Source: a virus
IMG/VR virus record: IMGVR_UViG_3300036851_000065
Coordinates: 1-54,144 of that record
DNA: 54,144 nucleotides
Strand: one strand, 5' to 3'
The notes under the pieces were generated by a model. It saw only the letters and a program-made list of their open reading frames with translations. It searched no databases and was not told the DNA's origin. This document shows positions 1,178-33,755 of this stretch, piece after piece. The position numbers were made by a program, and so were the translations under genes. The first letter of the stretch is position 1. Every line of letters starts with the position of its first letter.

Positions 1178-1197
1178 AAATTTAGGGGTTGGTCTAT

Positions 1198-2781: not shown

Positions 2782-2790
2782 AATCTAAAA

Positions 2791-2866
2791 GTCGGAATGG
2801 TGTAGTTGGTCTGCACGTATGCGTGAAGCCCATAAGGTGTCAGTTCGATCCTGACTTCCGGCACCA
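2791..2866 (+). tRNA. tRNA-Phe (GAA)
   Basis: The acceptor GTCGGAA pairs with TTCCGGC, and the T arm is GTCAG/CTGAC around TTCGATC. The anticodon loop reads GTGAAGC, giving GAA with U33. The anticodon stem has a C-C mismatch at its loop end, so the isotype is slightly less certain than the gene itself. CCA is encoded. Confidence 0.85.
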
Positions 2867-2881
2867 AATTAGGTGATGTAA

Positions 2882-3076: not shown

Positions 3077-3092
3077 TGTTAACGGCTATAGA

Positions 3093-3281: not shown

Positions 3282-3287
3282 ACGAAT

Positions 3288-3539: not shown

Positions 3540-3547
3540 AGGCTTTA

Positions 3548-3623
3548 GGGCCGTTAGCTCAATGGTTAGAGCAGTTGTTTCTAAAACAATCGGTTATCGG
3601 TTCGAATCCGATACGGCCCTCCA
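3548..3623 (+). tRNA. Amber suppressor tRNA (anticodon CTA)
   Basis: A canonical fold with no mismatch in any arm apart from a G-T pair. The acceptor is GGGCCGT/ACGGCCC, the D arm GCTC/GAGC, the anticodon stem GTTGT/ACAAT, and the T arm ATCGG/CCGAT around TTCGAAT. The seven-base anticodon loop TTCTAAA (3579-3585) puts CTA at 3581-3583, which decodes UAG. Alternative registers of the stem do not pair. Discriminator is T3620 and CCA is encoded. The amino acid it carries cannot be read from the sequence: the U73 and G1-C72 differ from the U1-A72/G73 of glutamine acceptors. Confidence 0.92.
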
Positions 3624-3643
3624 AATAATAAGAAGATGAGAGA

Positions 3644-3850
3644 ATGAATAATGGAATGCCTTATGCGGTAATGTGTCCAGAAGGTGATGGGCACTGTTGG
3701 ATATTTGACGGCTACCTATCTGATAACAGAATGGGGGCTGAAAGATGGCTCAAATGGCATTTGTCAGATAAAAGAGAAGCCTGTTCCAGAGAATTAAAAG
3801 ACCATTACGTACTCTTAGTACTTGATCCATTTGAAATGCGTGGGCTATAA
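3644..3850 (+). CDS. Hypothetical protein
   Basis: 68 residues from ATG 3644, preceded by a purine-rich GATGAGAG. It is rich in Trp, His and Cys (GDGHCWIFDGY), with no recognised family. The stop overlaps the next start as TAATG (3848-3852), so the two are translationally coupled. It follows the suppressor tRNA. Confidence 0.6.
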   Translation: MNNGMPYAVMCPEGDGHCWIFDGYLSDNRMGAERWLKWHLSDKREACSRELKDHYVLLVLDPFEMRGL

Positions 3851-4275
3851 TGAATATTGACTTAGAAGATATCTTATTAGATAAACACCCGATTAGCTAT
3901 GTACGTGAAGGTAGTTGCTGTTACGGTGAAGATGTGGTTTGTCGCTGTGGGTGGGAGGGCAGCCCCTCTGATTATAGTACTCATCTTGTAGTTACTCTTG
4001 GATTTACTAGAACCGTTGTTGATAAGTGGAAGCAAAGATTAGGTCAATATGCTATGATAGACGATAGAGGCGAAGAAAACTTCTTAAATACCTATCGCGG
4101 AGAAGAAGATAAAACAACTCTTGGTTTATCTAAGAAGGAGTGGGAAGCTCTAGATAAGACTGAAAGAAAAGAAAGTAAAAAAGCTGGTAAGTTAGTACGC
4201 ACTGGTCCCTTTGCAGATGATCCTAGTAAGAAAAATAAGTGGGATTATATGTTTGAGGAACCACCTGAATTTTAA
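3850..4275 (+). CDS. Hypothetical protein with Cys cluster
   Basis: 141 residues starting at ATG 3850, which overlaps the previous stop. It contains CCYGE and CRCGW (residues about 23-37), a plausible single zinc site. The second half is charged and Lys/Glu rich (KKEWEALDKTERKESKKA), probably helical. No enzyme motif is visible. It ends six bases before tRNA-Cys. Confidence 0.62.
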   Translation: MNIDLEDILLDKHPISYVREGSCCYGEDVVCRCGWEGSPSDYSTHLVVTLGFTRTVVDKWKQRLGQYAMIDDRGEENFLNTYRGEEDKTTLGLSKKEWEALDKTERKESKKAGKLVRTGPFADDPSKKNKWDYMFEEPPEF

Positions 4276-4280
4276 AATAT

Positions 4281-4358
4281 GGGGCGGTACCCGAGTATAA
4301 ATCAGGGACTTACTTGCAAGGTAAGAATAGGGGAGTGAAAATCTCTCCCGCCTCTCCC
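4281..4358 (+). tRNA. tRNA-Cys (GCA), atypical T loop and 3' end
   Basis: The acceptor GGGGCGG pairs with CCGCCTC. The anticodon stem CTTAC/GTAAG is perfect and the loop TTGCAAG reads GCA. Discriminator T4355 fits tRNA-Cys. Two oddities stand out: the T loop is TGAAAAT instead of TTCAAAT, and CCC (4356-4358) follows the discriminator instead of CCA. The terminal CCA would have to be added or repaired after transcription. Confidence 0.82.
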
Positions 4359-4363
4359 AATTT

Positions 4364-4439
4364 CAGCGGATAGACTAATTGGCTAAGTCATTGGTTTGTG
4401 ACACCATCAATGTCGGTTCGATCCCGGCTCCGCTGACCA
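4364..4439 (+). tRNA. tRNA-His (GTG)
   Basis: A perfect acceptor, CAGCGGA/TCCGCTG, and a T arm GTCGG/CCGGC. The anticodon loop TTGTGAC reads GTG, with a T-T at the base of the anticodon stem. CCA is encoded. The discriminator is A, whereas bacterial tRNA-His normally has C73 paired with an extra G at -1. Charging identity is therefore a little uncertain. Confidence 0.85.
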
Positions 4440-4441
4440 TT

Positions 4442-4517
4442 CCTCTCGTAGTATAAAGGTATAATACAATTGCCTGATAAGCAGTAAATGGCAGTTCGAT
4501 TCTGCCCGAGAGGACCA
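4442..4517 (+). tRNA. tRNA-Ile (GAT)
   Basis: A perfect acceptor, CCTCTCG/CGAGAGG, and a T arm GGCAG/CTGCC. The anticodon stem ATTGC/GCAGT encloses CTGATAA, giving GAT. CCA is encoded. Only two bases separate it from tRNA-His. Confidence 0.92.
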
Positions 4518-4537
4518 ATTAAAATAGGAGGGGAAAA

Positions 4538-4645
4538 ATGCCTACAGATTGGAAGTCTTTACTTATCTTTATCATAGCAGTAGTTGTGGTAGTGTTTGCA
4601 ACCATTAAGATTTGGCCTGTTGTTATTGGTGGGCCACTAATTTAA
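4538..4645 (+). CDS. Single-pass membrane mini-protein
   Basis: A 35-residue ORF from ATG 4538 with a very strong AGGAGGGG site six bases upstream. After a short polar N-terminus (MPTDWKS) comes one hydrophobic segment (about residues 8-23, LLIFIIAVVVVVFAT), then a short tail. It is probably an inner-membrane peptide. The strong ribosome binding site and clean topology support it being real despite its size. Function unknown. Confidence 0.6.
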   Translation: MPTDWKSLLIFIIAVVVVVFATIKIWPVVIGGPLI

Positions 4646-4655
4646 TCATTCCCCT

Positions 4656-5045
4656 GTGGATAGAAGAAGTTTGAATCGAAAAAAGAAAAACGAGATACAA
4701 CGAAACTGGTCTAATAATCGTAGGCAACAAGCCTTAGATATATTGGGCAACAAATGCGTTGTGTGTGGTTCTACTGAAAATCTAGAGTTTGATCATATAG
4801 ACCCCAAAAAGAAGTCCTTTGCGATTGGTGCTTGGGGATCACATTCTTGGGAAGAAATATTAAAAGAGTTAACTAAATGCCAGATACTTTGTAAGATAGA
4901 CCACAAAAAGAAAACAGAACCTAAACATGGCACATATAGTTGCTATAAGCATAGAAAATGTAAGTGTATTGCGTGTATAAACGCCAATACAGAATACATG
5001 AGAACGTACCGATTGGCTCGTAGACAAACTGGTAAAGTCGTCTGA
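4656..5045 (+). CDS. HNH endonuclease, 3' end overlapping tRNA-Gln
   Basis: 129 residues from GTG 4656. HNH features: CVVC (34-37), FDHIDP (45-50) and C-x3-C...H (75-83), which form the zinc-braced beta-beta-alpha metal nuclease. The C-terminal part carries KHGTY...CKCIAC (90-107), a Cys-rich module also present in the second HNH protein at 5984. Such proteins are often free-standing homing endonucleases of phages. The reading frame runs 32 bases into tRNA-Gln (5014-5045), so the last ten residues are encoded by the tRNA acceptor and D arm. This fits insertion beside, or selfish association with, the tRNA gene. Its ribosome binding site is weak. Confidence 0.85.
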   Translation: MDRRSLNRKKKNEIQRNWSNNRRQQALDILGNKCVVCGSTENLEFDHIDPKKKSFAIGAWGSHSWEEILKELTKCQILCKIDHKKKTEPKHGTYSCYKHRKCKCIACINANTEYMRTYRLARRQTGKVV

Positions 5046-5090
5046 TTCTGGATCAGGAGTTTGTAGGTTCGACTCCTACCGAGCCAGCCA
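5014..5090 (+). tRNA. tRNA-Gln (CTG)
   Basis: The acceptor TGGCTCG/CGAGCCA with discriminator G has the U1-A72, G73 pattern of tRNA-Gln. The anticodon stem TCTGA/TCAGG encloses TTCTGGA, giving CTG. The T arm is GTAGG/CCTAC. CCA is encoded. Its first 32 bases also encode the end of the HNH gene. Confidence 0.9.
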
Positions 5091-5113
5091 ACTTAAAAAA
5101 GGTAGTGGAGTAA

Positions 5114-5371
5114 TTGGATAGAAGAACCAAAAGACAAAAATTACAAGACATGGCTAATCAAACCGAGTCTCCACACGAAGCTGATATAGCACGAAGAATG
5201 TTAAAAGACCTACCACCAGAAGAGAATTTTTCCGGTCCCCTGTACTATAATGGTATTAAGGTAGGAGAGGCGTTCAACGTTCGGTTCACATTGAACTTTG
5301 ATCCCGGTGTTGGCGTCTATGACTTTGTGAAACAAGAATGGAACTGGACCAAACCTTCGGGAACTAAATAA
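5114..5371 (+). CDS. Hypothetical protein, DUF2786-like N-terminus
   Basis: 85 residues from TTG 5114 with GGTAGTGGAG upstream. The first 35 residues (RQKLQDMANQ, then SPHEADIARRML) resemble helical segments seen in many phage proteins that count small repeats of aging or division domains, but the match is loose. The C-terminal half is beta-rich and aromatic. The TAA stop (5369-5371) is followed directly by tRNA-Arg with no gap. Confidence 0.6.
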   Translation: MDRRTKRQKLQDMANQTESPHEADIARRMLKDLPPEENFSGPLYYNGIKVGEAFNVRFTLNFDPGVGVYDFVKQEWNWTKPSGTK

Positions 5372-5448
5372 CCGCCTGTAGCTCAATAGGATAGAGTATG
5401 AGGTTTCGACCCTCAGGGCTGCACGTTCGAATCGTGTCAGGCGGGCCA
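5372..5448 (+). tRNA. tRNA-Arg (TCG)
   Basis: A perfect acceptor, CCGCCTG/CAGGCGG. The anticodon stem TGAGG/CCTCA encloses TTTCGAC, giving TCG. The T arm is GCACG/CGTGT around TTCGAAT. CCA is encoded. It begins at the base after the preceding gene's stop codon. Confidence 0.92.
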
Positions 5449-5477
5449 AATTAATAAAACCCCCTGTCTCCCTGAAA

Positions 5478-5517
5478 CCTGCTATATGTAGGTGTAAACT
5501 CGGATAAGTTCAGCAGG
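5478..5517 (+). other. Imperfect stem-loop in tRNA-array spacer
   Basis: CCTGCT (5478-5483) pairs with AGCAGG (5512-5517), with an inner AACT/AGTT hairpin (5497-5510). It has no U tract, so it is not an intrinsic terminator, and it lacks a T arm, so it is not a tRNA. It could be a processing signal or a decayed RNA gene. Confidence 0.35.
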
Positions 5518-5562
5518 GCGGGCTAAATAAAGGGAGAAGAATAAGCTCAGGAGTTGATATGA

Positions 5563-5685
5563 ATGCCTCTCAAATCAAAGGCACAAAGAGCGTGGATGCA
5601 CATAAATAAACCCGAAATGGCAAAACGTTGGGAGAAAGAAACTCCTAAAGGAAAAAGACTTCCAAACAAAGTTAAGAAGAAATAG
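5563..5685 (+). CDS. Conserved-type small basic phage protein
   Basis: 40 residues from ATG 5563, preceded by CAGGAGTTGAT. The sequence has the pattern common in small phage proteins: SKAQRAWM near the start, PEMAKRWEKETP in the middle and a very basic KRLP...KVKKK end. These proteins are of unknown function and often occur near structural genes. It ends in TAG. Although short, the recognisable pattern supports it. Confidence 0.65.
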   Translation: MPLKSKAQRAWMHINKPEMAKRWEKETPKGKRLPNKVKKK

Positions 5686-5716
5686 AACGTACTTTGCCCC
5701 ATTTTCGTTGATTTTG

Positions 5717-5727
5717 GGTGTTATAAT
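5717..5727 (+). promoter_or_regulatory. Possible extended -10 promoter element
   Basis: GGGTGTTATAAT contains TG-N-TATAAT (TATAAT at 5722-5727), a consensus extended -10 element, 14 bases before tRNA-Tyr. No good -35 was found at 17-18 bases. It could supply transcription to the distal tRNA genes. Weak single-site evidence. Confidence 0.35.
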
Positions 5728-5740
5728 AATGAAATAGTCT

Positions 5741-5824
5741 GGACTAGTTGAACAGGTGGTGGGTTCGCTTGACTGTAGATCAGGTGCTTTGGCCATGGGG
5801 GTTCGATTCCCTTCTAGTCCACCA
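5741..5824 (+). tRNA. tRNA-Tyr (GTA), class II
   Basis: A perfect acceptor, GGACTAG/CTAGTCC. The anticodon stem CTTGA/TCAGG encloses CTGTAGA, giving GTA. A long variable arm precedes a T arm with TTCGATT, as expected for bacterial tRNA-Tyr. CCA is encoded. Confidence 0.92.
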
Positions 5825-5836
5825 ATTAAAAATAAA

Positions 5837-5881
5837 CGGGTCGCAGTATTGGTTCAATTGCTCTGTCAATTGTTCGGCCCG
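5837..5881 (+). other. tRNA-remnant-like folded element
   Basis: A 7-bp stem CGGGTCG/CGGCCCG (one T-G) closes an element containing a second stem, CAATTG/CAATTG around CTCTGT. At 45 bases it is too short for a normal tRNA and has no U tract. It sits between tRNA-Tyr and tRNA-Thr, so it may be a decayed tRNA or a spacer hairpin guiding processing. Confidence 0.35.
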
Positions 5882-5885
5882 ACAT

Positions 5886-5958
5886 GCCGATGTAGTATAA
5901 CGGTTTATTACCGCTGTTTTGTACTCAGCAGATGGGGGTTCGATTCCTCTCACCGGCT
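5886..5958 (+). tRNA. tRNA-Thr (TGT), no encoded CCA
   Basis: The acceptor GCCGATG pairs with CACCGGC with one A-C mismatch. The anticodon loop TTTGTAC in stem GCTGT/TCAGC gives TGT, with a T-T at the loop end. The T loop is TTCGATT. The discriminator T is followed by CAT, so CCA must be added. It is weaker than its neighbours but folds. Confidence 0.78.
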
Positions 5959-5983
5959 CATCAAAGATTCTAAGGAGTCAACG

Positions 5984-6442
5984 ATGGAAACATCAAACCA
6001 GAAAAAGAATAGACTACTAGGAGAGCCTTATGGAACAGCTACCTCTCGTTTGAGAAAAATGCTTTTGTTCGATATGGCGAGACGGCTTAAAGAGGATATT
6101 TGTTTTAGATGCGGTAAAATTATACAGACTCTAGAAGAATTCTCTATTGAGCATACAATCCCTTGGCAGGGAACAGAGAATCCAAAAGAAGCTTTCTTTG
6201 ATATAGAGAAGATTGCGTTCTCTCATTTAGTTTGTAACTCCGGTGCTGGTTTAAGATATACGGGAATAAAGGATACTACGCTCCACGGTAATTCTCGTTA
6301 TGATAAAGGGTGTAGATGTGCTGAATGTACTAAAGCACATTCTGAGAAAGGTAAGCGTTGGAAGCGTGAAGTCAATTATCGTAATATAAATAAATCTGTT
6401 TGTGATTTTCTTCCTCCGTGTCCTCATTCATATCATCATTAA
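5984..6442 (+). CDS. HNH endonuclease
   Basis: 152 residues. ATG 5984 is chosen because TAAGGAG lies seven bases upstream; the frame is open much further upstream, but that part crosses two tRNA genes. Zinc and HNH features: CFRC (40-43), IEHTIPW (55-61) and HLVCN (81-85). A C-terminal LHGN...CRCAEC module (100-115) is shared with the HNH protein at 4656. It probably makes a nick or double-strand break as a mobile-intron-style or free-standing homing nuclease. It lies between tRNA-Thr and the initiator-like tRNA. Confidence 0.85.
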   Translation: METSNQKKNRLLGEPYGTATSRLRKMLLFDMARRLKEDICFRCGKIIQTLEEFSIEHTIPWQGTENPKEAFFDIEKIAFSHLVCNSGAGLRYTGIKDTTLHGNSRYDKGCRCAECTKAHSEKGKRWKREVNYRNINKSVCDFLPPCPHSYHH

Positions 6443-6474
6443 TCACCGGCCCCATTAAAATTTATTCGTTGCGT

Positions 6475-6550
6475 TGCGGGGTGGAGCAGTGGTTAGCTTG
6501 CTAGTCTCATAAGCTAGAGGTCGTAGGTTCGAATCCTACCCCCGCTCCCA
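6475..6550 (+). tRNA. tRNA-Met (CAT), initiator-like
   Basis: The sequence strongly recalls bacterial tRNA-fMet: GCGGGGTGGAGCAG at the 5' side, AGGTCGT before the T arm and CCCCCGC at the 3' side. Position 1 (T6475) faces T6546, so 1-72 is unpaired, a hallmark of initiator tRNA, followed by six perfect acceptor pairs. The anticodon stem CTAGT/GCTAG encloses CTCATAA, giving CAT. It lacks the three consecutive G-C pairs typical of initiator anticodon stems. CCA is encoded. Confidence 0.88.
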
Positions 6551-6555
6551 ATTCT

Positions 6556-6627
6556 CGGTGGGTGATTTGGTAATCTAGTTAGTTTCATACGCTGGCTGAG
6601 AGAGTTCGATTCTCTCCCTACCGACCA
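6556..6627 (+). tRNA. tRNA with CAT anticodon (elongator Met or Ile2)
   Basis: The acceptor CGGTGGG/CCTACCG is fully paired. The anticodon stem TTAGT/GCTGG (wobbles) encloses TTCATAC, giving CAT. The T arm is GAGAG/CTCTC. CCA is encoded. A fully paired 1-72 sets it apart from the initiator-like gene just upstream. It could be elongator Met, or Ile if C34 is modified to lysidine. Confidence 0.88.
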
Positions 6628-21015: not shown

Positions 21016-24000
21016 TTGGCAGATATTACATCTAGGGTAAAGTTTTTAGGCGATGCCTCTCAACTTCTACAAACATATCGAGCAATTGGTGCCCAAGCTA
21101 GTCTTCTAGATCGTCAAATAAATGCTATAAATCGTGCCTCTTTACAGATTAAGGGATTTGCTATTCAAGGTCCGGGTATCACAGCGGCGCGAGCGTTTGA
21201 GACGTATTTTGGTCCCGGTATAAGAGACGTAAAAACTGAGTTTGATTCTATTAATAAGGTTTTAAAAACTACTGGTGAAACCTTTATTCAGGTAGGAAAA
21301 CAAGGAAAATTCCTTACCGGAACCTTTGAAGAAATTCATGGTAACACTGATGATATTTTAAAAGCTACGCAAGCCTATTCGGGTGCTTTGTCTACAAACG
21401 CTCAGGCTTTGAGTGCTACTCGTCAAGCTTATTTATCTACTACTGGTCCAGTAAATCAGAGAATTAATCTTCTTAAAAAGCAATTGGCGTTAGAGGTTCA
21501 ACAAGGAATTATCTCAAAGCAAACTGCTGATAGCATTATTGATCGAGAACGAAGATTAAGAAATTATGATAGAGCCCCGGCACTACAAAATTATGTGAAA
21601 CAGAAAGCACAGGCATTTCAAGCTCTCGCATTAGCTAGAGCAGAGATTGATAGGGCTATTGCTGCCCCTCCTACTGTTGGTCCAGCAAGCTTACAAAATA
21701 TTCCTAAAAATATACTTAGAGAATTGTATGCTAGAGGATTGCCTCGTGATCCGGCAGCGCAGTTTGCTCGTGGTGCAGAAGCAACTGTAACCGGAGATTT
21801 GATTCATGGCACACAAAGAGCGGCTATCCAATTTAGAGATATGAATGGGGTCTTACAACAGGCTCAGGTTGAATGGGATAAGAACGGTAAAGCCATTACT
21901 AGATTCGGAGGCAATTTAAGTGGATTACAAAACCTTCTTAATCAAACAGTACGTAACCTACAGAAAGTTGTTCAATGGACAGCCGCTACTACACTAGTAT
22001 TTGGTACTCTAGCATTTGCAGCTAGCGAACTATCCACGTTAGTTAATCTAGATAAAAGCTTAAAGCAGCTATCTATCACAGCGCAGTCAACATCTGAACA
22101 GACTCGTGGATTGTTCTCCAACTTAGCTGATACCGCCTTTGAGACAGCTACACCATTAGCAGAAATGGTTAAAGCAGCGGATGATATTGCTCTTGCTACA
22201 AGAAAAGCAGGATCAACCTCTAAAGAATATCAACAAGATATCCTTAACTTGTCTCAGGCTGTTGGTATATTTACCAATCTAACTGGTGTTGACACAGTCC
22301 AAGCAACTGATTTACTAACATCAGCTATGAAACAACTAGGTATTGAGACTGAAGATGTTGTTGGTGTTCTATCTAAAATTACGGCTGTGGCCGGGGGCCA
22401 GAGTAACGCTATTGCCGATATTGCGCAAGTACTTGCTGTTATGTCTGAGGCTGCACGACAGGCCGGATTATCAATTGACGAAACAATTGCTACAGCACAG
22501 GTTTTGTCACAGGTTACAGCAAAATCTCCTGCGGAAATTGCTACAGCATTTAAGAATCTAACAGGATCACTTGACTCTACAGCGGGAACAAAAGCGTTAG
22601 CTAAGTTTAATATTGATCTTAGAGATAGTGCAGGAAACCTAAGAAATATTCTTGATATCTATGGAGAAATTTCCGATAAGATCAGACAAGGTGTTATTGC
22701 CCCCGATCAGGTTAAGGGTCTAGTCAAGGCTATTGCTGGTGGTCCGAGAAGAGTGCCAGACGCAGCGGCCTTGCTGTCCAATATTGATCAGATTGAGGCT
22801 GTTACGCTTAGAAGTGTTAGTGCTACAAATGAAGCTCTAATTGCTAACGCTAAGATTCTTGATACAACAGCAGCTAAACTTACACAACTTAAAGTTATTG
22901 TAGATCGGTTTGCATTTGAGAAGTTCGGTCCCGCACTAAAGGATACTGTAGAAGTATTCTTACAGGCAGCTACAAGCTTAGTAGACGTTCTAAATAGCGT
23001 TGATGCGGGGGCTATATCAACTGCTCTTACATTAGCTGGAATGTTCTTAGCTCTACGAATAGGTGGAGGTATTCTCGCTAGATTTGTTGGCGGCATATTC
23101 TCAATGGTTGAAAGTCTTAATGCTACAAGAATTGCAGCCGTTGGTGCAGGACAAGCGGTTGCTCAATTCGGAGCCAAGGCTGCTGTAGCTCAACAATTAG
23201 CAGGTGCTAGAGGCGGTATAACTCCTGCCGGTATTAAATCTGGTGCTGCTTCATTAATAGGTTATGGAGCAATTGGTGCTGGATTAACCGCAGCTACAGG
23301 AGGAAACCCATTACAGGTTGTGGGTGGAGGATTACAGGGTGTTGGTCTTGCAGCATTAGCGATACCTCATCCATTTGCAAAAGCTGCTGCGGCAGCGGCT
23401 ATTTTAGGTGGTACTTTCCTTCAAATGGCTACAGCAAGTAATGAGGCCGCACAATCTGTTGACAATGTAGCTGCATCTGCTGAGGAAGTTTTAACAGCAT
23501 TTGCAGCTTATAGTGAAGCACGAGATATTCTAGAGAATTTAGGTAAGACTCAAAAAGAACTTTCTACATCAATTGAAAACTTAACATCAAAGCAAAATAA
23601 ATCAGCAAGTGACTTAGCTCTACTTAATGACTTCCAGAGCCAGTATGTTCAAAATACCCTTGCTATGGCTGATGCTAATGTTAAACTAGCTGATGCACAA
23701 CAAATTTTAAATGATAAAATTGGCCCCGGATTTCAAGAAGCTATCGCTGCTGCTACGTCTGGTCGTTTAAATCCTGAACAATTACAAGAACTTATTAAAG
23801 AATATCAGTATGCTATTTTGCGGGCTACTAGACCAGATTTAACTCTTCCTGAGGAAATTGATATTCCAGATGTTCAACGAGCGGGATTTTTGCCTTATAA
23901 TTTAAGCCCTGTAGACACGGCTTATGTACCCACGCAGACTACTCAACCATTGCGGCTGCAACAGGCCGATGTTGAAGCTCCTGTTCCGTTGGTTGATCTT

Positions 24001-25773
24001 CACTTAGATGAATTGGAACAGGATGCTAACAAAGCTAAATTATTATTTAATTCATTAGGCACAGAAATTATAGCAAGTATCACACCAACTGGTAGGGCAT
24101 TTGATTTAATAGATGGGGCATTGCAAAGATTAAAGGCAAGCGGTGATCCTGCTGCCGATGCTATGATTAAGACATTTAATGCGTTTAAGCAAGGCAAGGA
24201 TGCAGTTAATGCGGCAGAGGTTAATCTAGCAATATTCCAAGCAAGAATAGAAGCGTTATCTGCTATTGGTGATCCATCCGCAGCTACTCTACAAAAAGGT
24301 TTGGACCTCGTTACAAAGATAGTTAATGTTGGAGCGTTAGAGGGCGGAGAAAAAGGCGCAGATGCTATTTTTCAAGCGACTAAAAGCTTTGCTGATCTAC
24401 TAAAGAGCGGGGAGGCTATCAAACCAGAGGATTTCCTACCCACCGTTAAACTTTATGCTGAATTATCAGGGGCTACGCAAGGACTAACAGATAAAAATAT
24501 TGCTTATCAAGCTATTCTAGATTCTCTTGGTTTGGAGTACGAACTACTGGGAGAACGGGCACGAGTATCCCTCGGACAAATAAGTGAGGAAACAGCCGAA
24601 CTTATTGAGAATTTAACTGAGCTTCAAGGTTCGCTATTAGAAGACTACACTCTTAAACGGGCTGACCTCCAAGCTAGAAAACAAGGGGGAGAGTTTGAGG
24701 GTAAAGAAGGAGAATTCGCAGCCCAAGACAAGCAATTAAAAGCTCTTGAAGAGCAGATCATACGAGTTACAGACGCCTATATAAATGCCGAAGAAACTAT
24801 TCCCGGTTTTGAAACCGTGGTAGATGAATTTGCGGCTTCATTGACTAATGTAGTTGGATTACATGATGCTGAAGTTTTAAGTACGGATCAACTAATTGCT
24901 CGATTATTTAGCTTAGCTGATACGTACGGCTTAACAGGTGCCCAAGTAGATATCCTTGGAAATAAGCTGGTTGCTTTAGCTGATACTGCTCGACAAATTG
25001 ATGCCATCAAAGCAAGCTTTGGCATTTCTGCTGAGGTAGATTTAAGTGGGGCTATTAAAGCCCTTCAAGCCCTAAGAAATAGCGTTTCATCTATGGCTAA
25101 ACTCCCTATTATTGGTAATATTATAGGCGGGGCTGGTCTTGGTCCAATTGATAATGCTCTTCAACAATTAATTAATGCTCAAAGCTCTATTGGTGGGGCT
25201 GGCTCAAGTTTAGGGGCTGTGTATACAGGCGGCGCAGGTTCAGGAGGTCCGGGTGGTAGCGCGCCAACAACTAAAGCTCCTAAAGGTCCGGGGTTAGATG
25301 TTTCAACAATAGATATTCCTGATGCTATTGCTACCGCATATAACAGGGATGCCTTGATTCAAGAAGCTATTAGAAGAGCCAAAGCACTACAAGCTAAGAT
25401 TCCGGGTGCTGCAAAAGAAGCTTCTAATGATATCGTAGAGCTATTAAAGGGTACTCAGAGAATTCTTGAAGTTAGGGGCGTTAAAGACGATCTATTAAGA
25501 CGAGCCCTAGAAGAACTAGCTGATATCGAAAAGAAGAGACTTGAATTTGAAACAAAAGCTGACACTATTCGAAGAATTCGGGTGGGTTCAGGCAGCTTTG
25601 CAGCGATTGCTAATGTTCCCGTTAATACACAAACAGGGGTAAGCCTTGGCGGGGCTCAGGGACCAATTAATATCTCATTGAACTTAAATGGAACTGTATT
25701 GACGCCAGCGCAGTTAGCACAATTTGCTGATTTAGTAGCAGCGGCACTAAAACGTCAAATTGCGAATGGTTGA
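21016..25773 (+). CDS. Tape measure protein
   Basis: 1585 residues from TTG 21016, three bases after the GT stop. Helical Gln/Ala-rich segments dominate. A TP901-type core lies around residues 340-600 (DTAFETATPLAEMVKAADDI, GLSIDETIATAQVLSQVT). Hydrophobic helices occur near 325-345, 655-690 and 745-800. A Gly/Ser-rich hinge is seen near 1390-1420. It sets tail length: at roughly 1.5 angstrom per residue the tail would be near 240 nm. The hydrophobic segments could help DNA cross the membrane. Confidence 0.93.
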   Translation: MADITSRVKFLGDASQLLQTYRAIGAQASLLDRQINAINRASLQIKGFAIQGPGITAARAFETYFGPGIRDVKTEFDSINKVLKTTGETFIQVGKQGKFLTGTFEEIHGNTDDILKATQAYSGALSTNAQALSATRQAYLSTTGPVNQRINLLKKQLALEVQQGIISKQTADSIIDRERRLRNYDRAPALQNYVKQKAQAFQALALARAEIDRAIAAPPTVGPASLQNIPKNILRELYARGLPRDPAAQFARGAEATVTGDLIHGTQRAAIQFRDMNGVLQQAQVEWDKNGKAITRFGGNLSGLQNLLNQTVRNLQKVVQWTAATTLVFGTLAFAASELSTLVNLDKSLKQLSITAQSTSEQTRGLFSNLADTAFETATPLAEMVKAADDIALATRKAGSTSKEYQQDILNLSQAVGIFTNLTGVDTVQATDLLTSAMKQLGIETEDVVGVLSKITAVAGGQSNAIADIAQVLAVMSEAARQAGLSIDETIATAQVLSQVTAKSPAEIATAFKNLTGSLDSTAGTKALAKFNIDLRDSAGNLRNILDIYGEISDKIRQGVIAPDQVKGLVKAIAGGPRRVPDAAALLSNIDQIEAVTLRSVSATNEALIANAKILDTTAAKLTQLKVIVDRFAFEKFGPALKDTVEVFLQAATSLVDVLNSVDAGAISTALTLAGMFLALRIGGGILARFVGGIFSMVESLNATRIAAVGAGQAVAQFGAKAAVAQQLAGARGGITPAGIKSGAASLIGYGAIGAGLTAATGGNPLQVVGGGLQGVGLAALAIPHPFAKAAAAAAILGGTFLQMATASNEAAQSVDNVAASAEEVLTAFAAYSEARDILENLGKTQKELSTSIENLTSKQNKSASDLALLNDFQSQYVQNTLAMADANVKLADAQQILNDKIGPGFQEAIAAATSGRLNPEQLQELIKEYQYAILRATRPDLTLPEEIDIPDVQRAGFLPYNLSPVDTAYVPTQTTQPLRLQQADVEAPVPLVDLHLDELEQDANKAKLLFNSLGTEIIASITPTGRAFDLIDGALQRLKASGDPAADAMIKTFNAFKQGKDAVNAAEVNLAIFQARIEALSAIGDPSAATLQKGLDLVTKIVNVGALEGGEKGADAIFQATKSFADLLKSGEAIKPEDFLPTVKLYAELSGATQGLTDKNIAYQAILDSLGLEYELLGERARVSLGQISEETAELIENLTELQGSLLEDYTLKRADLQARKQGGEFEGKEGEFAAQDKQLKALEEQIIRVTDAYINAEETIPGFETVVDEFAASLTNVVGLHDAEVLSTDQLIARLFSLADTYGLTGAQVDILGNKLVALADTARQIDAIKASFGISAEVDLSGAIKALQALRNSVSSMAKLPIIGNIIGGAGLGPIDNALQQLINAQSSIGGAGSSLGAVYTGGAGSGGPGGSAPTTKAPKGPGLDVSTIDIPDAIATAYNRDALIQEAIRRAKALQAKIPGAAKEASNDIVELLKGTQRILEVRGVKDDLLRRALEELADIEKKRLEFETKADTIRRIRVGSGSFAAIANVPVNTQTGVSLGGAQGPINISLNLNGTVLTPAQLAQFADLVAAALKRQIANG

Positions 25774-25862: not shown

Positions 25863-26615
25863 ATGCCGCTAGGACCAGCACAGGCTTATTTAGCTAACTA
25901 CAATTCTTATCAATTACCGGGCTATGTTCAGCGAGAGTCTTTAGACTCTTCCATGAATATAGCAAGTCATTATGGCCCCTATGCCGATGGTTCGGAATCA
26001 GAGTATACAGGGCTTCAAAATAAACTTATGTCTCTTACATTAAAAGTGTGGGAGCCCGATTACTTATCATGTAAAAATGAGGTACAGAAAGCAGCTACTA
26101 TACTTAGAAGTAAGAAAGGTGATTTTGCCCCTCTATATCTTCAATATACTGATAGATATTATGAGGCTATGACACAAACAATCAGAGAAGAAAAGACCGC
26201 TGGCGAATCCGTTAGAACATTAGAGTATGAAGTACAGCTTGAATGTAAGCCTTGGCTTACTAGTGTATCAGGCTACACAATTACAGGTACAGGCACGGTA
26301 ACTACAGATGCAGTAGGCAGAACGATAGATGACGGTGGTTGGACTCCAACCTTGATTACTGTTACTGGTACAAATGTAACAATTTCAGGCTATTTAGACA
26401 ACGGCGATCCTACAGGATTTGTTAGCATTTCTGGTGCTGTTACAGGCATGGTTATTGACTCTGATGATTTCACTGCTGAAATTTCGGGGATTAATAGAAA
26501 CGAAAAAATGTTATGGACAGAGTATAGAACATATGTAGGTCCGGGTAGAACAACTTTCGTAATTACAGGAGCATCATCTTGTACCATACAATATAACAAT
26601 AGATGGTACATATAA
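25863..26615 (+). CDS. Distal tail protein (Dit-like), copy 1
   Basis: 250 residues from ATG 25863. The N-terminal half (PGYVQRESLDSSMNIASHYG, then SEYTGLQNKLMSLTLKVW) resembles Dit N-terminal domains that form the ring at the tail tip. The C-terminal half is a beta-sandwich ending in a YNNRWYI signature. The same architecture recurs at the C-terminus of the 27688 protein with clear similarity (PGY.Q.ES.DS, LECKPWL, GGW.P...TVTGTN), so the domain has been duplicated. Confidence 0.8.
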   Translation: MPLGPAQAYLANYNSYQLPGYVQRESLDSSMNIASHYGPYADGSESEYTGLQNKLMSLTLKVWEPDYLSCKNEVQKAATILRSKKGDFAPLYLQYTDRYYEAMTQTIREEKTAGESVRTLEYEVQLECKPWLTSVSGYTITGTGTVTTDAVGRTIDDGGWTPTLITVTGTNVTISGYLDNGDPTGFVSISGAVTGMVIDSDDFTAEISGINRNEKMLWTEYRTYVGPGRTTFVITGASSCTIQYNNRWYI

Positions 26616-26626
26616 GGAGGTTAATT

Positions 26627-27634
26627 ATGGTAGCAAGAAAACTAGACGGGTGGGACCACTACGGTACATCACAACTGGGAAGAAAAATAGCCACAATTCT
26701 AAACGTGCCTGTGGTTGCCTCTCCCGGTAGATTTGGCGGGGGCATGATAACGGGACCCAACCTAAATTCAGGGTTCACAGACACAATTGATAGCCAAGCT
26801 ACATTTATTGTAGGTATGGCTGTAAGATTTGTGGGGGCCTTACCATCAGCAACATCTGTAGTACTAGGATTTTTAGATACAGGTACACTTCATACTGATC
26901 TAAGAATAAGTAGCGGTGGAATTTTAACTGTTACTAGAAATGCTAGTTTATTAGGAACGGGTACCGCTGTATTAGTAGCAAACACTTGGTACTATATTGA
27001 AATGAAGGTTACAATCAACGATTCAACAGGTGTAGCAGTAGTTAAAGTTAATAATACTACAGATATTAACTTATCTGATGTAGATACTAGAAATGCTGCC
27101 AACTCTACAGCTAATCAAATTCGTGTATTTGGTGTAACAAATAATCCTGTTACATGGAACGTTGATGACTATTATGTGTTTGACTCTACCGGATCAGTAA
27201 ATAATGACTTTAATGGTCCAGCTAGAGTTTGGACAGGTTTTGCATCAGAGGCGGGAAACTCAGCACAATTTACAGGAACACCGGGACCAAACTTCGCTAA
27301 TGCTAATGATGCGTCATCAGACGATGACGGTAGCTATAACTTTTCATCAACCGCTAATCATATTGATTCATTTAAGTTTGATGATCCTCCAATTACTTCT
27401 GGTACAGCCACAGCTTTCCAGCATGTTATTACTGCGAGAACAGATGGGGCGGGGGCTAGATCACTAGCAGCACATCAAAGAGAAGGATCAACTAATTATG
27501 CTGAGGCGGGACAAAGCTTATCAGCTTCATGGGCTATGCACAGATTCATAAGAGATACCAACCCTGCTACATCGGCGGCTATTACTGCGGCAGAATTAAA
27601 AGATGACGAGTGGGGCTACAAACTAATCAGTTAA
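26627..27634 (+). CDS. LamG-like tail fibre protein
   Basis: 335 residues. ATG 26627 follows TAAGGAGG; an upstream in-frame start at 26603 lies within the previous gene. The middle reads as a concanavalin/LamG-type jelly roll (ITGPNLNSGF near the start, NTWYYIEMKVTINDSTGVAVVKVNN, then NVDDYYVFDSTG). Such domains in phage tail tips usually bind host glycans. The C-terminal part is similar in style to phage appendage tips. Confidence 0.78.
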   Translation: MVARKLDGWDHYGTSQLGRKIATILNVPVVASPGRFGGGMITGPNLNSGFTDTIDSQATFIVGMAVRFVGALPSATSVVLGFLDTGTLHTDLRISSGGILTVTRNASLLGTGTAVLVANTWYYIEMKVTINDSTGVAVVKVNNTTDINLSDVDTRNAANSTANQIRVFGVTNNPVTWNVDDYYVFDSTGSVNNDFNGPARVWTGFASEAGNSAQFTGTPGPNFANANDASSDDDGSYNFSSTANHIDSFKFDDPPITSGTATAFQHVITARTDGAGARSLAAHQREGSTNYAEAGQSLSASWAMHRFIRDTNPATSAAITAAELKDDEWGYKLIS

Positions 27635-27687: not shown

Positions 27688-30600
27688 ATGCCAAAACAGC
27701 CTAACGTTAGGGTTAGTCAAGATGTAGTTGAGGCTCTTATTTCCCTTCCAGCAACACCTGACAGTATTGTCGGGGCTGCTGTTACCCAAGATGTTATCGA
27801 AGCACTTATCTCTGATCAAGGTAACGTACGAGTTAGCCAAAACGTTATAGAAGCTCTTATATCTGATACCCGCAATGTTCTAGTTTCACAAGATATAATC
27901 GAAGTTTTAATTTCTGTACCAGCCACGCCAGATACGGCTGTTGGTGCTGCAGTAACACAAGATGTTATTGAAGTTCTTATCTCGGATGCGGGGAAAGTTC
28001 TTGTCTCACAAGATGTAATTGAAATACTTATATCCTATGATCCCGGTATTACGTCATCTTATGCGCACGCTCAATCACAAGCTGATATCAAGAAAACAAA
28101 TAATGTTCATGGTCAAGCACAAGGTGATATTAAAACTACCTACTATCAGCATGCTCAGGCGCAGGGTTTTATAGGCGGTACTAATTTTCAACAAGGCCAA
28201 TCTCAGGGTACAATATTAACAAATGTATCTCAGCATGGTCAAGCTCAGGCCGATATCCTTCAAACTTACTTTGCTCATGGTCAGGCTCAGACATTTATTA
28301 GAAAGAGTGTTGGCTATGGACAGGCGCGAGCTTCGATACAAACTCTTAGATTATTAGATACCTTTAGTCGCAACGAAGACGTCGGTGTATTAGGAACACC
28401 CGATATTGGCCCCACATACGAGCTTATTGAGGCAGATCAACTTATTGCTCCTACTGGTTGGGGCTCAATTGAAGTAAACGGATTTACCGCGAGAATTGTT
28501 TGGACAGTTCTTGGTGCAAACGTATGGATAGAGAATCCTGTTAGTGTTTTAGATCATGAAGCATCCATTGAATTTAGTTATGATAATACCTCACCATTAT
28601 ATAGCTCTTTTTATTTAGAACTTATAGGTGGAGTAACTAATAACTTCAATGACAACGTTGGAATATTTTTTGAAGAAGTCGCGGGTCTTACGCGGTTTTC
28701 TTTATATGCTAATGTTGGCGGTAACTTTGAAGAGAGTTCTTCCACAGCTTTTCCATTAGTAGGGAATGAAACTTATGTACTAAAATACACGGTTTCTGGC
28801 GGTGTTTTGAGAGGAAAGGTTTGGAATATATCTGGTCCTGAACCGGATTGGATGGCAGAACTAATCTTATCTGGACCTAACGTTTCCGGGTACGTTCAAT
28901 TTTTCGCAAGAACAGTTTCAGAAACTCTTCCTAATATTTTAACACTAGATAATTGGAACGTTCTTTCGGCTGAACCTGTATTGCCACACGCTCAGGCCCA
29001 AGCTGACATAAAAGCAACACTAAATAAACACGGACAAGCACAAGCTATGGTTGTTAGAAGACTAGCTTCTGGACAAGCTAAAGCAAAAATCAATGCTTTT
29101 GGTGTCAATAAACACGCACAGACTCGTGCAGTAATAATAAAATCCGCTGGTTATGGTCAGGCACGAGCAGATATTCTTAAAACAACTAGAGCATTTGCTC
29201 AGGCTAGAACGCAAATTAATCAATCTAAGCAGACAGGTCAAGCTCAGGCTGATATCCTTAAAACCACTAATAGGGTTGCCCAAGCCCGAGCTAAAATAAT
29301 ACTCAAAAGGTCTAGCCACGCTCAGACGCAAGCCTATATAAAGATACGGGTTACGGCCTCAGCACAAGCGGAAGGTTTTATAAAAGCGCCTTCATTTAGT
29401 TCTGGGCAATCTAATGCTCTTATTGATAGTGCAATTAAGAATATATACGGTCAAGCGCAAACTCTTATTGAGCAAACCTATTCAACTTCGGGCCAAACAC
29501 AGGCACACATTTGGAAAACTGTATGGAAATTAGCCCAAGCACAAGCTGCTATACGAAAACAATCAAGTAATTCGGGCCAAGCTCGGGCTTATATAGCCAC
29601 GCCGTTTGCTCAGGGTCAAGCACAAGCATTAATTACCACTACAACACCATCGGGTCAAGCACAAGCATTTATTATTAAGACAGTTGGTTACGGCCAAGCA
29701 CAAGGAAGAATAAAGGCTACTAGAAGTTTTTATGGGCAGGCGCAAGGTTACATAAGACGAGGATTTATGCGTCATGGGCAAGCGAGGGCTATGGTAAAGG
29801 CCGTTAATAGGAAACACGGGCAAGCACAAGGCTATATTGCTCGATCCATTGCGTTTGGTCAGGCGCAGGCAGTCATTAGAAGTGGAATAAATACAGGACA
29901 AGTCCAAGCATATATCAAGAAAATACTTACATCTAATGGGCAAGCACAAGCGTTTATTGCTAGAGGGTTGAAATACGGACAAGCACAAGCGTATATTACA
30001 GGAGAACAAGAAAGATATCTTGTTAAGTATAATAACTACATTCTTCCGGGGTATGCTCAGCATGAAAGTATAGATTCAGATATGGGCATATTCAATCACT
30101 ATGCTGCTTATGAAGATTCGTCTTTGTCTGAGTATGCGGGGTTAAAAAATAAGTTAATTTCTCTACAAATGAAGGTAGCAGGAGAGAATTACCACGATTC
30201 CAAAGAACAAATCCAAGTTGCAGCTACGGTGCTGCGTTCACGATCATCCGGGTTTAGCCTATTGTACATTCAACGAAGTGATAGGCACTATGAAGCTTTG
30301 GGTAAGAAGATTTCAATGGAATCAACAGCCCAACAATCAGGTAAACTTATTGATTACAATATTGAGTTTGAATGCAAGCCTTGGTTAATAAGCGATGCTG
30401 TTTATACTGTCTCTGGCACAGCCACGGTACAAGCTATAAGAACGTTGTACGACGGCGGTTGGAGCCCTGTTACTCTAACCGTCACAGGAACCAACATTAC
30501 GGTTTCAGGCTATACAAATACTGAGCAATTTACAGGATTTGTTACTATCTCGGGAGTTACAAATAATCTCATTCTTGACACAGAAAAAGAGGGTTATGCC

Positions 30601-30690
30601 ACTCTTTACGTTGGGCCGGGGACAACAACATTTGAAATAACAGGCGCTACAGATTGTGTAATTTCGTACCATAATAGATGGTACCTTTAA
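27688..30690 (+). CDS. Giant repeat tail protein with second Dit-like domain
   Basis: 1000 residues from ATG 27688 with TGGAGGGAG upstream. Domains: residues 6-116, six copies of a VxVSQDVIExLIS repeat; about 125-219, seven copies of a 13-15 residue xGQAQAxI repeat; about 220-430, a jelly-roll-like insert starting LLDTFSRNEDVG; about 432-770, 25 more GQAQAxI repeats; about 772-1000, a Dit-like domain paralogous to the gene at 25863. It probably forms a baseplate ring with a long extended arm that reaches the host. The repeats are strongly diverged at DNA level, arguing for maintenance by selection. Function inferred from position and domains. Confidence 0.82.
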   Translation: MPKQPNVRVSQDVVEALISLPATPDSIVGAAVTQDVIEALISDQGNVRVSQNVIEALISDTRNVLVSQDIIEVLISVPATPDTAVGAAVTQDVIEVLISDAGKVLVSQDVIEILISYDPGITSSYAHAQSQADIKKTNNVHGQAQGDIKTTYYQHAQAQGFIGGTNFQQGQSQGTILTNVSQHGQAQADILQTYFAHGQAQTFIRKSVGYGQARASIQTLRLLDTFSRNEDVGVLGTPDIGPTYELIEADQLIAPTGWGSIEVNGFTARIVWTVLGANVWIENPVSVLDHEASIEFSYDNTSPLYSSFYLELIGGVTNNFNDNVGIFFEEVAGLTRFSLYANVGGNFEESSSTAFPLVGNETYVLKYTVSGGVLRGKVWNISGPEPDWMAELILSGPNVSGYVQFFARTVSETLPNILTLDNWNVLSAEPVLPHAQAQADIKATLNKHGQAQAMVVRRLASGQAKAKINAFGVNKHAQTRAVIIKSAGYGQARADILKTTRAFAQARTQINQSKQTGQAQADILKTTNRVAQARAKIILKRSSHAQTQAYIKIRVTASAQAEGFIKAPSFSSGQSNALIDSAIKNIYGQAQTLIEQTYSTSGQTQAHIWKTVWKLAQAQAAIRKQSSNSGQARAYIATPFAQGQAQALITTTTPSGQAQAFIIKTVGYGQAQGRIKATRSFYGQAQGYIRRGFMRHGQARAMVKAVNRKHGQAQGYIARSIAFGQAQAVIRSGINTGQVQAYIKKILTSNGQAQAFIARGLKYGQAQAYITGEQERYLVKYNNYILPGYAQHESIDSDMGIFNHYAAYEDSSLSEYAGLKNKLISLQMKVAGENYHDSKEQIQVAATVLRSRSSGFSLLYIQRSDRHYEALGKKISMESTAQQSGKLIDYNIEFECKPWLISDAVYTVSGTATVQAIRTLYDGGWSPVTLTVTGTNITVSGYTNTEQFTGFVTISGVTNNLILDTEKEGYATLYVGPGTTTFEITGATDCVISYHNRWYL
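28060..28344 (+). repeat. GQAQAxI protein-repeat block 1
   Basis: Seven degenerate coding repeats of 13-15 codons with consensus [YH][GA]QAQAxI. Codons differ between copies, so the repeat is visible mainly at protein level. Confidence 0.9.
28983..29995 (+). repeat. GQAQAxI protein-repeat block 2
   Basis: About 25 further coding repeats, from PHAQAQADI to YGQAQAYI, ending where the Dit-like domain begins. Small residues and Gln alternate, which would suit a beta-solenoid or a fibrous stalk. Confidence 0.9.
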
Positions 30691-33600
30691 AGTGGGTGGT
30701 TACTATATTACGGGTTAGGATAACGGACTTTGATGGATCAAATCCAATAAATTTGGAAAGAGCCAAGAACATAACAGAGTTTGAAGCTGTTAATACACCT
30801 GATGAGGGCGTGTCTTTTGACATTGCAAAAAATGATCCCAAGGCCGAAATATTAAATCCTGATACAGTGGCGGGATTTACAAAGTTTTGGGAGGTTTGGG
30901 AAACTACAACTAATGAGCGTCTAAATTATGGGTCAATTACCTCTATAACAGAACAAGGCTCTGATTATAGGGTGGTAGGAGCGGGAAGATCAAGCCTATT
31001 AGCTGACTTCAGAAAATCAAAGAAGACTTTTTACACTCCCATTGACTCTATTGTTGATGATCTTCGTTATGAAAACCTAGCCATCCAACCAAGAACAACA
31101 ACACTTGTTCCTCGTGCTGAGTCTAGCGCCAGTCAAACTACTATCTTCGGTAGTTCAGTAATAAGGGATGAGAAGTATGCTGGTCTTAGTAAACAAACTA
31201 AAGATAATGCTATTGATGATAATTTCGGCCTTATAAAACCCGGAGAAATCGAACCGCCTAATACATATTTCTCAACCGATTCATATTGGGCAGGTCAATC
31301 TGTTTCAGACAGCCATGTTATTGATTTAGGAGATACCTATGATGTAAGTAAACTCCTTTTAATCCTTCCGTGGTGGGGAGGTATAGAAAGGAAAGGAAAC
31401 AGAACATATGATTTTGAAATAGCGTATGCTGATGATACCGAAGCTCCGCTTGTTACCTATCAAGGTAAAAAAATTGGTCCCTTTCATCCTATATTTGATA
31501 CAGGGGCGGATAGCAGGCTTGTTGTAGGAAATCAGCCGGGGGCTTCATTTTATTTGGGAGCTACAGCAAGTGGTATAGGTCTTGACGATCCCACCTTCTA
31601 TACAGCTTTAAGTTCACCGGGACCCGTAAATTGTAGGTATATTAGAACAAGAGTATACGATGTTCATGCTTGGTATGGAAGTGTTCTTGACACTAATCCG
31701 TCTCTTGATGGGTGGGATTTTCAATGTGATCCTGATTATCAGCCGGGAGATTTTGGTACTGATCCCGCTGATGCCGAAGGAATTATGACGGATAAAGTTA
31801 TTAACGAAAGAGTTTTAGAGCCTGCTAATGATTGCTTTGCTTCTATAGTAGAAATGGGAGTATATCAAGAAATTCTATCAAAGGATGAGATAAAACCCCT
31901 TGCTTTGCAACGAATTGATAACAATAATCTTCAAATAATATACAACCATATTCCTGATCCAAGCGAGACAATTACCACGCCTAATGGGTTTAGAAAGTTT
32001 GAGCCGGGAGGTTTCTTTAGACAAATTAGTGTCGATTATAGTGGTGCTAATACTACTTATAATAAATTTTATGATTCTGATTGTGCAGGTTGCTATCCAG
32101 ATGGGTTCAATTTTGGTGTAATTGATCAGAATAATAGTCTTGTTATATCTAGGGATCAAACATCAGGAGTTGGAGTTACCGTCAAATCGGGAGCTTATAC
32201 AAGTCTTGTATTAATGAAAGGGGCTTCTGATGCTACTGTTACATTAGCGGATTCATGGCCCGCAATTACTGATCCTCTATCATGGGGAGGAAGTTATTCA
32301 TATACAACAGTTCAAAATGATTATGCTATTCTTCATTTCAGGGGCCAATCATTGAAGTGGTATGCTACAATACCAACAGGAGAAACCGGGGCTACGGTTA
32401 AAATAGAAATACGTAACAAAAATGCTAGCGGAACATGGACGGCCTATAGTACTTTGGAGACAGGACTTATATTACCCAATAATATAGCTTCTGAGGTTGT
32501 GTATGAGATAACATATGAATCAGGTATTCTAGCTGCCAATACGGTATACCAGTTAAAGATAACTAATTTAAATGGGGGTTATTGTTCGATAGATTCATTT
32601 GAAGGTTATTGGTCAGCCTCCATGACGCAGTACAATGAAGATAATCACCGAATTAATGTAAGTGCGCCTGAAAGACTTACACAAGTCTATGACAGCAGAT
32701 TTAGTGGCGGCTCTATGTATCGTTGGAACAACAATACTTTCTTTAACTTCCACTTTGAGGGAGACAGAGTAGTAATTCTATCAGCTAAGGGTAGAAATCA
32801 CGGTAAGCTTAGGTTAATTCTCCTAAAAGGTAATGGGCCATCATATTATGATGAATACCCTAACGATAATCAAGTATTTATTCCGGGCGGAAGTCCTACA
32901 GATGGCAGTATTTCTATTGATCTTGAAACAAGTAGACGTGGAGCGGAAATTACACAGTTTGTAGCATTTGACTCTAATGAGTACTTTCCAAACGGCTTAC
33001 CTTGGGGTAAATATCTAGTTGGTATTTATTTACTACCATCTGAGATAGAAACATATACAACTACAGATGATGTGGATGCTAATAATTTCATTGACAGGTG
33101 TTCTGATTGTACTGATCCTACAGGAGAAGCAGTTGAGATAAATAAGTATGTTTATCTAGACGCTATCGCTGTTCACGAAAAGGTGGGGCTATCAATTTCC
33201 TTTGAAAACGAAACTCACTTAGATATATTACGTGCAGTAGCTGAAGCTGTGCAAGCTGAGTGGGACGTTACCGAACAAGGAGTACGTTTAGAGCCCCGTA
33301 TTGGAATAGATACAGAAGAAGTATTGAGAGAAGGACAAAACACGCTGGTAGACTGGCAAGTAGTTAACGATGTAAATAGGGTGGCTTCTATTCTTGTATC
33401 TACTGGTGCAGATATTGATGGGCTTCCTTTGTTCGCTATAACAGAAAATAAGGAAACTCGACAAACATTAGGTAGAACAGTCATGCGGCAGCAGGACTTT
33501 AGAAATATAGCCGACTATTTTCAACTTATCGGAATGTCACGAACAGAATTAAAGAAGAGACAGGTACCAGAAAAAAGAATAACAGTAACGCATATTTCTT

Positions 33601-33755
33601 CTGACTTCACATTACGCAAGGGAGACTCTTTTATTTTGTATACAAAAAAGATGGGGCCATTGAGGGTTAGAATAATGAGAAGGCAGATTAGTAATTCATC
33701 ATCATCGGGTAGAACATACGAATTGGAGTGTATAAAATGGCCTCTGATAACATAA
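30678..33755 (+). CDS. Tail hub / receptor-end protein
   Basis: 1025 residues from ATG 30678, overlapping the previous gene by 13 bases; GTG 30696 is an alternative start, and neither has a strong ribosome binding site. The N-terminal (VRITDFDG...) and C-terminal (EVLREGQNTLVDWQVVNDVNRV, then FTLRKGDSFILY) parts resemble gp27/hub-type proteins. The middle is beta-rich and Cys-containing, probably a discoidin-like or carbohydrate-binding insert (DSYWAGQSVSDSHVIDLGDT). It follows the Dit-like proteins, the usual site of the tail-associated hub. Confidence 0.75.
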   Translation: MVPLKWVVTILRVRITDFDGSNPINLERAKNITEFEAVNTPDEGVSFDIAKNDPKAEILNPDTVAGFTKFWEVWETTTNERLNYGSITSITEQGSDYRVVGAGRSSLLADFRKSKKTFYTPIDSIVDDLRYENLAIQPRTTTLVPRAESSASQTTIFGSSVIRDEKYAGLSKQTKDNAIDDNFGLIKPGEIEPPNTYFSTDSYWAGQSVSDSHVIDLGDTYDVSKLLLILPWWGGIERKGNRTYDFEIAYADDTEAPLVTYQGKKIGPFHPIFDTGADSRLVVGNQPGASFYLGATASGIGLDDPTFYTALSSPGPVNCRYIRTRVYDVHAWYGSVLDTNPSLDGWDFQCDPDYQPGDFGTDPADAEGIMTDKVINERVLEPANDCFASIVEMGVYQEILSKDEIKPLALQRIDNNNLQIIYNHIPDPSETITTPNGFRKFEPGGFFRQISVDYSGANTTYNKFYDSDCAGCYPDGFNFGVIDQNNSLVISRDQTSGVGVTVKSGAYTSLVLMKGASDATVTLADSWPAITDPLSWGGSYSYTTVQNDYAILHFRGQSLKWYATIPTGETGATVKIEIRNKNASGTWTAYSTLETGLILPNNIASEVVYEITYESGILAANTVYQLKITNLNGGYCSIDSFEGYWSASMTQYNEDNHRINVSAPERLTQVYDSRFSGGSMYRWNNNTFFNFHFEGDRVVILSAKGRNHGKLRLILLKGNGPSYYDEYPNDNQVFIPGGSPTDGSISIDLETSRRGAEITQFVAFDSNEYFPNGLPWGKYLVGIYLLPSEIETYTTTDDVDANNFIDRCSDCTDPTGEAVEINKYVYLDAIAVHEKVGLSISFENETHLDILRAVAEAVQAEWDVTEQGVRLEPRIGIDTEEVLREGQNTLVDWQVVNDVNRVASILVSTGADIDGLPLFAITENKETRQTLGRTVMRQQDFRNIADYFQLIGMSRTELKKRQVPEKRITVTHISSDFTLRKGDSFILYTKKMGPLRVRIMRRQISNSSSSGRTYELECIKWPLIT

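Follow-up and report, generated by a model that had tools for sequence, protein, structure and literature searches.

The window, by which we mean the whole stretch of DNA analysed, is a 54,144-base virus record (IMGVR_UViG_3300036851_000065) that carries tail genes on the plus strand. A tape measure gene of 1585 codons (21016-25773), recognized by PHROG tape measure families (E 1.7e-21) and Pfam PhageMin_Tail (E 3.6e-19), is directly followed on its 3' side by a stand-alone gene for a Dit-like, that is, distal tail, protein of 250 residues (25863-26615). Between this gene and a second Dit-like copy lies a tail gene for 343 residues (26603-27634), matching PHROG_2448, a family with unknown function, at E 4.3e-27. 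The second copy is part of the open frame at 27688-30690, whose 1000-residue product is the subject of this analysis. Downstream of it, a large tail gene (30678-33755; 1025 residues) is assigned by its position to the usual place of Tal, the baseplate hub; its PHROG match is weak (E 0.045), and its product resembles, by eye, that of the gene following Dit in a related record, G015 (1071 residues). Gene position thus places the 1000-residue protein at the tail tip, in agreement with an earlier sequence-only reading of this DNA, which had described it as a tail protein.

The protein combines an N-terminal repeat, two blocks of a second, 14-residue repeat with a lectin-type domain between them, and a C-terminal Dit-like domain. 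The N-terminal repeat, the Dit-like domain and its duplication go beyond the sequence-only account. At the N-terminus (residues 6-118; 27703-28041), VSQxVIEALI-type units (VSQ/TQDVIEALIS; VSQDVIEALIS and variants) stand 17 or 23 residues apart, with self-identity peaks at lags of 17, 23 and 40. Their tandem DNA pattern is matched twice in the window and not at all in shuffled sequence, and no named family was found for them. A repeat of this second kind, [VL]RV[ST]QxVVEVL with a spacing of 17 residues, occurs in tandem in many other phage contigs (L117-L136); its two-copy pattern retrieved 20 stretches, 19 of which were confirmed in translation.

The 14-residue repeat and its distribution

The second repeat forms a first block of 7 units (residues 128-217; 28066-28338), matched by the repeat profile at E 3.2e-26, and a second block of 25 units (residues 435-770; 28987-29997), also matched by the profile. 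Counted with the pattern [GA]Q[ASTV][QKRENG][AGST]x[IV], this amounts to exactly 32 copies, compared with a mean of 0.11 and a maximum of 3 in 10,000 residue shuffles of the same protein; the 30 spacings within the blocks are 14 (18 cases), 13 (10) or 15 (2) residues. The estimate of about 32 copies of a 13-15-residue unit in the sequence-only reading was therefore accurate, while its motif, [GA]QAQAxI, was drawn too strictly: the exact form is found in 9 of the 32 copies, but a related looser pattern, [GA]Q[AST][QRK][AGT]x[IV], in 29. The variation in codons among the copies, noted in the same reading, is borne out: where copies share a fourfold codon, the third base is identical in 0.28 of comparisons, compared with a random expectation of 0.31, and Tandem Repeats Finder detects no DNA-level repeat. 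With synonymous sites thus saturated, the repeat must be old and have been kept by selection on the protein. Recent DNA duplication as its origin was discarded for the same reason, for the lack of a DNA repeat, and because units standing side by side resemble each other no more closely than distant ones do (mean identity 0.459, versus 0.450 for units more than 8 apart, in 34 arrays).

Across relatives, the consensus of 455 unique 14-residue units reads Y-A-Q-A-Q-A-x-I-K-x-T-Y-x-x, with the strongest conservation at Q3 (95%), I8 (87%), A4 (76%) and Y12 (60%). Unit length varies: among 824 unique units, 543 have 14 residues, 129 have 15, 69 have 13, 30 have 17, 22 have 12, 19 have 16 and 12 have 18. 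In the units of other lengths than 14, the tail is richer in G, P, N and D (0.19-0.25 per residue) than the core is (0.03-0.10).

These relatives were collected from viral_contigs with a DNA pattern for two consecutive units, which retrieved 17 stretches (5 in its version with 39-base spacing), and further with a Dit profile, which led to 3 loci, and a terminase alignment, which led to 37. The window terminase recurs at 61-74% identity in 11 of the 16 records reached via the repeat or the Dit profile, and its comparison with named phages gave one weak match, with 25% identity over half the protein; together, this makes them an uncultivated virus group. By profile, the repeat is present in 20 of the 43 virus records examined, namely in 15 of 17 (the window included), most of which had been chosen through the repeat itself, and in 5 of another 26 to which the terminase had led. 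Within the latter set, it is carried by all three records longer than 20 kb, two of which (G040 and G042) appear to be the same virus, and by 2 of the 23 fragments of 4-19 kb. It is also found in G016, a record reached via the Dit profile. Several relatives (L006, L012, L016 and others) also possess giant repeat genes elsewhere than in the Dit region; one kind closes with a motif resembling RPVADISNDGWxxxVI, and another closes with LSD-type repeats (ILSDxxSLxLVLSD).

Searches of Pfam, PHROGs, NCBIfam and PDB sequences yielded no convincing match to the repeat, the best E-value in a PDB profile search with the gapped repeat alignment A4 being 0.05. The Pfam family Phage_fiber (PF03335) likewise describes a tandemly repeated unit of 14 positions from tail fibre proteins, but with E-values up to 10 admitted, its profile matched neither the window protein nor the arrays of L006, L012 and L015, whereas the positive control, lambda orf-314, was recovered in the same search in 5 stretches (E 3.1e-9). 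The Ala-rich repeat region of the phage lambda side tail fibre (orf-401) is similarly repetitive, but a comparison of profiles revealed no resemblance to the repeat alignment (hhalign probability 0.02%). Weak matches to Asparaginase_C, SMC, spectrin and phrog_32990 were attributed to composition; in the last of these (0.00098), none of the stretches passed on its own.

Among named phages (50,697 records), tblastn gave no hits to the window protein, to a relative's array or to the N-terminal repeat, and the L013 array found nothing in 72,556 plasmids. A control search with the window protein, with the low-complexity filter on and a database size of 2.3 Gb, retrieved the relatives with E-values from 1e-85 to 1e-15, so that for this protein the filter is not the cause of the negative result. 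A query with the window protein for related loci gave no match, and searches of the open-licence PMC literature listed no paper describing the repeat. The repeat itself therefore looks like a new family that is, within these searches, confined to one uncultivated virus group, and the earlier statement that it lacks a named family has held up.

Cellular genomes (genome_contigs) were searched with one tandem pattern, too strict to imply absence, which returned six stretches, five of them short or chance-like. The sixth, from an uncultured Clostridia MAG (L025, 3-1922, minus strand), is composed of 14-residue SxSQAQSDIQxI units with clean heptads and is probably a coiled-coil tail fibre; its letters are similar to those of the window repeat, but its pattern is different.

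Fold of the repeat

Few short protein repeats are known to build stiff phage fibres. For the present one, structure prediction of single chains gave two results that disagree. In the AlphaFold2 (AF2) model of the full-length window protein (24-row alignment, mean pLDDT 54.8), the arrays are of low confidence (pLDDT about 35-60), block 1 appearing as successive strands, each about 10 residues long, with short turns between them, and block 2 as a mixture of helix and strand. In contrast, 8 regular units of the relative L011 (30-row alignment) were predicted as one long helix, with a pLDDT of 92.2 and a pTM of 0.46. Prediction of 5-10 repeats had been suggested in the sequence-only reading as a check on its proposal of a beta-solenoid or an extended fibre; it produced a confident helix in L011, not beta structure.

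The units themselves carry a different signal. Covariation over 546 unit rows, obtained with a method that is uncalibrated against known helical repeats, peaks at i,i+2, the top pairs being 10-12, 7-9, 9-11, 5-7, 13-15 and 12-14. Relative to shuffling within each of 31 arrays, the mean z was 3.4, 5.4, 2.2 and 1.6 at separations of 1 to 4, and 0.6 at a separation of 7. On the basis of this covariation and of the variation in unit length, we consider it quite probable that the repeat forms extended beta structure rather than a coiled coil. The extended-fibre part of the earlier proposal is thereby favoured, but its solenoid part is not: neither of the two AF2 runs (window protein, L011 8-unit array) contains a solenoid with confidence, and adjacent and distant units are equally alike, giving no signal of a stacking ladder. 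Triple beta-spirals and similar long trimeric shafts built from short beta repeats are comparable in plan, but the window repeat shows no sequence evidence for such an arrangement.

The best-surviving alternative is an alpha-helical coiled-coil stalk in which the 14 residues represent two heptads with a Y/A/I/T core, the role as an adhesin being unchanged. It would account for the L011 helix and for the helices in part of block 2, and also for the hydrophobicity profile of the 14-residue units, in which period 3.5 takes the largest share on average (0.32, versus 0.17 at period 2). However, 281 of the 824 unique units deviate from 14 residues, and 239 of these have heptad-breaking lengths of 12, 13, 15 or 16; in the window, 12 of the 30 spacings are 13 or 15. 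Moreover, covariation does not rise at i+3, i+4 or i+7. The presence of G or P in 59% of the units (80% in the window) is a weak argument against helices, since the helical comparison array L025 reaches 74%. Overall, we regard a coiled coil as rather unlikely. Less likely still are flexible, mostly unstructured spacers that merely tether lectin modules to the tail: they would fit the low pLDDT of the window arrays, which falls below 35 in the N-terminal repeats, the richness in A and Q and the variable unit length, but hardly the strong conservation of single positions (Q3, I8, Y12) and the specific i,i+2 covariation, and pLDDT is a poor guide in shallow repeat alignments. With its natural variants running into the hundreds and no trace of recent duplication, the repeat lends itself well to testing fold prediction, on which the two runs disagree.

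The lectin-type insert and the Dit-like domains

The two repeat blocks flank an insert (residues ~218-431; 28339-28980) that takes the fold of a legume or L-type lectin in the AF2 model, consistent with the jelly-roll domain that had been placed there from the letters. The pLDDT of the insert ranges from 38 to 92 per 10-residue block and is highest in its second half. Its top VIA match is ERGIC-53 (4ygb_A; Z 16.2, rmsd 2.8, 176 residues aligned), and at rank 29 stands CBM2 of the evolved Dit of phage J-1 (5ly8; Z 14.9, rmsd 3.2, 192 aligned); the VIA list is filled by the lectin domain and barely probes other parts of the model. In relatives, Pfam places Laminin_G_3, PA14, F5/8-type C or related domains among the repeats, with at least one such domain in 8 of the 9 scanned (L011, L014, L026, L028, L031, L050, L052 and L059, but not L054). 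Judging from its modelled fold, we infer that the lectin-type module would bind sugars. ConA-like folds may serve structurally in virions, and ORF length differs among the relatives, so that the protein could set length or serve as a structural component at the tail tip, with the lectin-type domain as a structural decoration devoid of sugar binding, but this is improbable given the several distinct lectin-type families among the relatives' repeats, which are expected of exchangeable recognition modules.

The candidate anchor on the virion is the C-terminus. The last 230 residues (772-1000; 30001-30687) share 51% identity with the product of the stand-alone gene at 25863-26615 (E 9e-70), and the final 100 residues reach a pLDDT of 78-97 per block, preceded by lower values. 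The identification of both copies as Dit is weak by sequence, yet consistent. PHROG_33 ('distal tail protein Dit') matches 1 of 6 family members (E 1.2e-5) and Pfam SPP1_Dit 2 of 6 (best E 8.2e-5), with the scores seen lying under the curated cut-off, as does the SPP1_Dit match of the stand-alone product (E 0.012). A profile search of PDB sequences with the Dit-like family retrieved no Dit. At the level of fold, the BFVD matches to the full-length model at ranks 8, 22, 34 and 48 are named 'Distal tail protein', and gene position points in the same direction.

Dit-like matches were obtained in 13 of the 43 records (the window, 9 of the 16 and 3 of the 26), all of which also carry the repeat. 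In 10 of these 13, a second Dit-like domain closes, or nearly closes, a long ORF (1000-3049 residues). G011 and G037 have one Dit-like match each, and their array ORFs reach the record end, or nearly so, where fusion is not judgeable. In G015, a single Dit-like gene is directly followed by the gene in the Tal position, and the arrays reside in other genes. The occurrence of arrays both in the Dit fusion and elsewhere indicates that the repeat is a portable spacer and that the fusion is not universal. In G013, G040 and G042, the second Dit-like match ends at profile position 133, which may reflect an insertion within the Dit domain. The frame of G013 continues past this position with what looks by eye like the start of a fibronectin III-like domain, a possible module inside the Dit domain.

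Proposed role at the tail tip

The repeats, the lectin-type fold in the model, the duplication of the Dit domain, its fusion in relatives and the varied lectin-type modules are directly supported. They are best combined, with a probability of roughly 0.6, in a tail-tip adhesin that resembles evolved Dits (evoDits), in which rods of repeats emanating from a Dit-like anchor carry a lectin-type module. The C-terminal domain would anchor the protein at the distal tail, either beside the stand-alone Dit or as a second ring, and the 32 repeats together with the N-terminal VSQ-type repeats would project from this ring as extended, mostly beta, rod-like spacers that hold the sugar-binding module away from it. 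Several copies around the ring would then yield several lectin-bearing whiskers, which might catch host surface glycans ahead of the main receptor engagement. Lectins strung on the repeat, combined with a second Dit-like copy, are probably how this tail reaches and holds its host.

Published evoDits have carbohydrate-binding modules inserted in loops of their galectin domain (PMC7291167), and such insertions aid the adsorption of skunaviruses to exopolysaccharide-bearing hosts (PMC10688798). With these proteins of phage J-1 and the skunaviruses, siphophages of Gram-positive hosts, the window protein would share a Dit-like domain and modules of carbohydrate-binding type; the predicted fold of residues 218-431 is that of a carbohydrate-binding module and is matched by CBM2 of the J-1 evoDit itself. 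The arrangement, however, differs: instead of insertions in galectin-domain loops, the window protein has a continuous Dit-like domain at the C-terminus and its modules on a long repeat string N-terminal of it. Moreover, the Dit-like domain is duplicated, and the evoDit passages considered here offer no parallel to the repeat. By analogy, the protein would thus work like an evoDit with its parts reordered to repeats, lectin, repeats and Dit, although it does not belong to evoDits if these are strictly defined by internal insertion.

The role as a stalk or adhesin that the sequence-only reading had proposed therefore fits the lectin-type module between the repeats and the Dit-like anchor, but its candidate 'new class' was too strong a term: the kind of device appears to be known and the repeat to be new, rather than the protein representing a new class of machine. 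More tentatively, and with somewhat less than even odds, the repeat could be a new beta fibre module throughout the clade, forming whiskers of variable length on a duplicated Dit ring, on which lectin-type modules are exchanged like beads in a host-range device. If true, an uncultivated siphovirus group would possess a device of this kind for general use. The repeat is also well suited to studying how phages extend their adhesins and fit them out anew, and its sequence offers a way to recognize tail-tip adhesins in metagenomic viruses that otherwise lack gene annotation.

At the start of the record, 15 tRNA genes are clustered (27-6627). One of them, at 3548-3623, has the anticodon CTA, is labelled Pyl by ARAGORN and is the top tRNA by Rfam score (71.7 bits); it looks like an amber suppressor. 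TAG terminates 8 of the 45 listed ORFs of the window, each of which has a further stop within about 15 codons.
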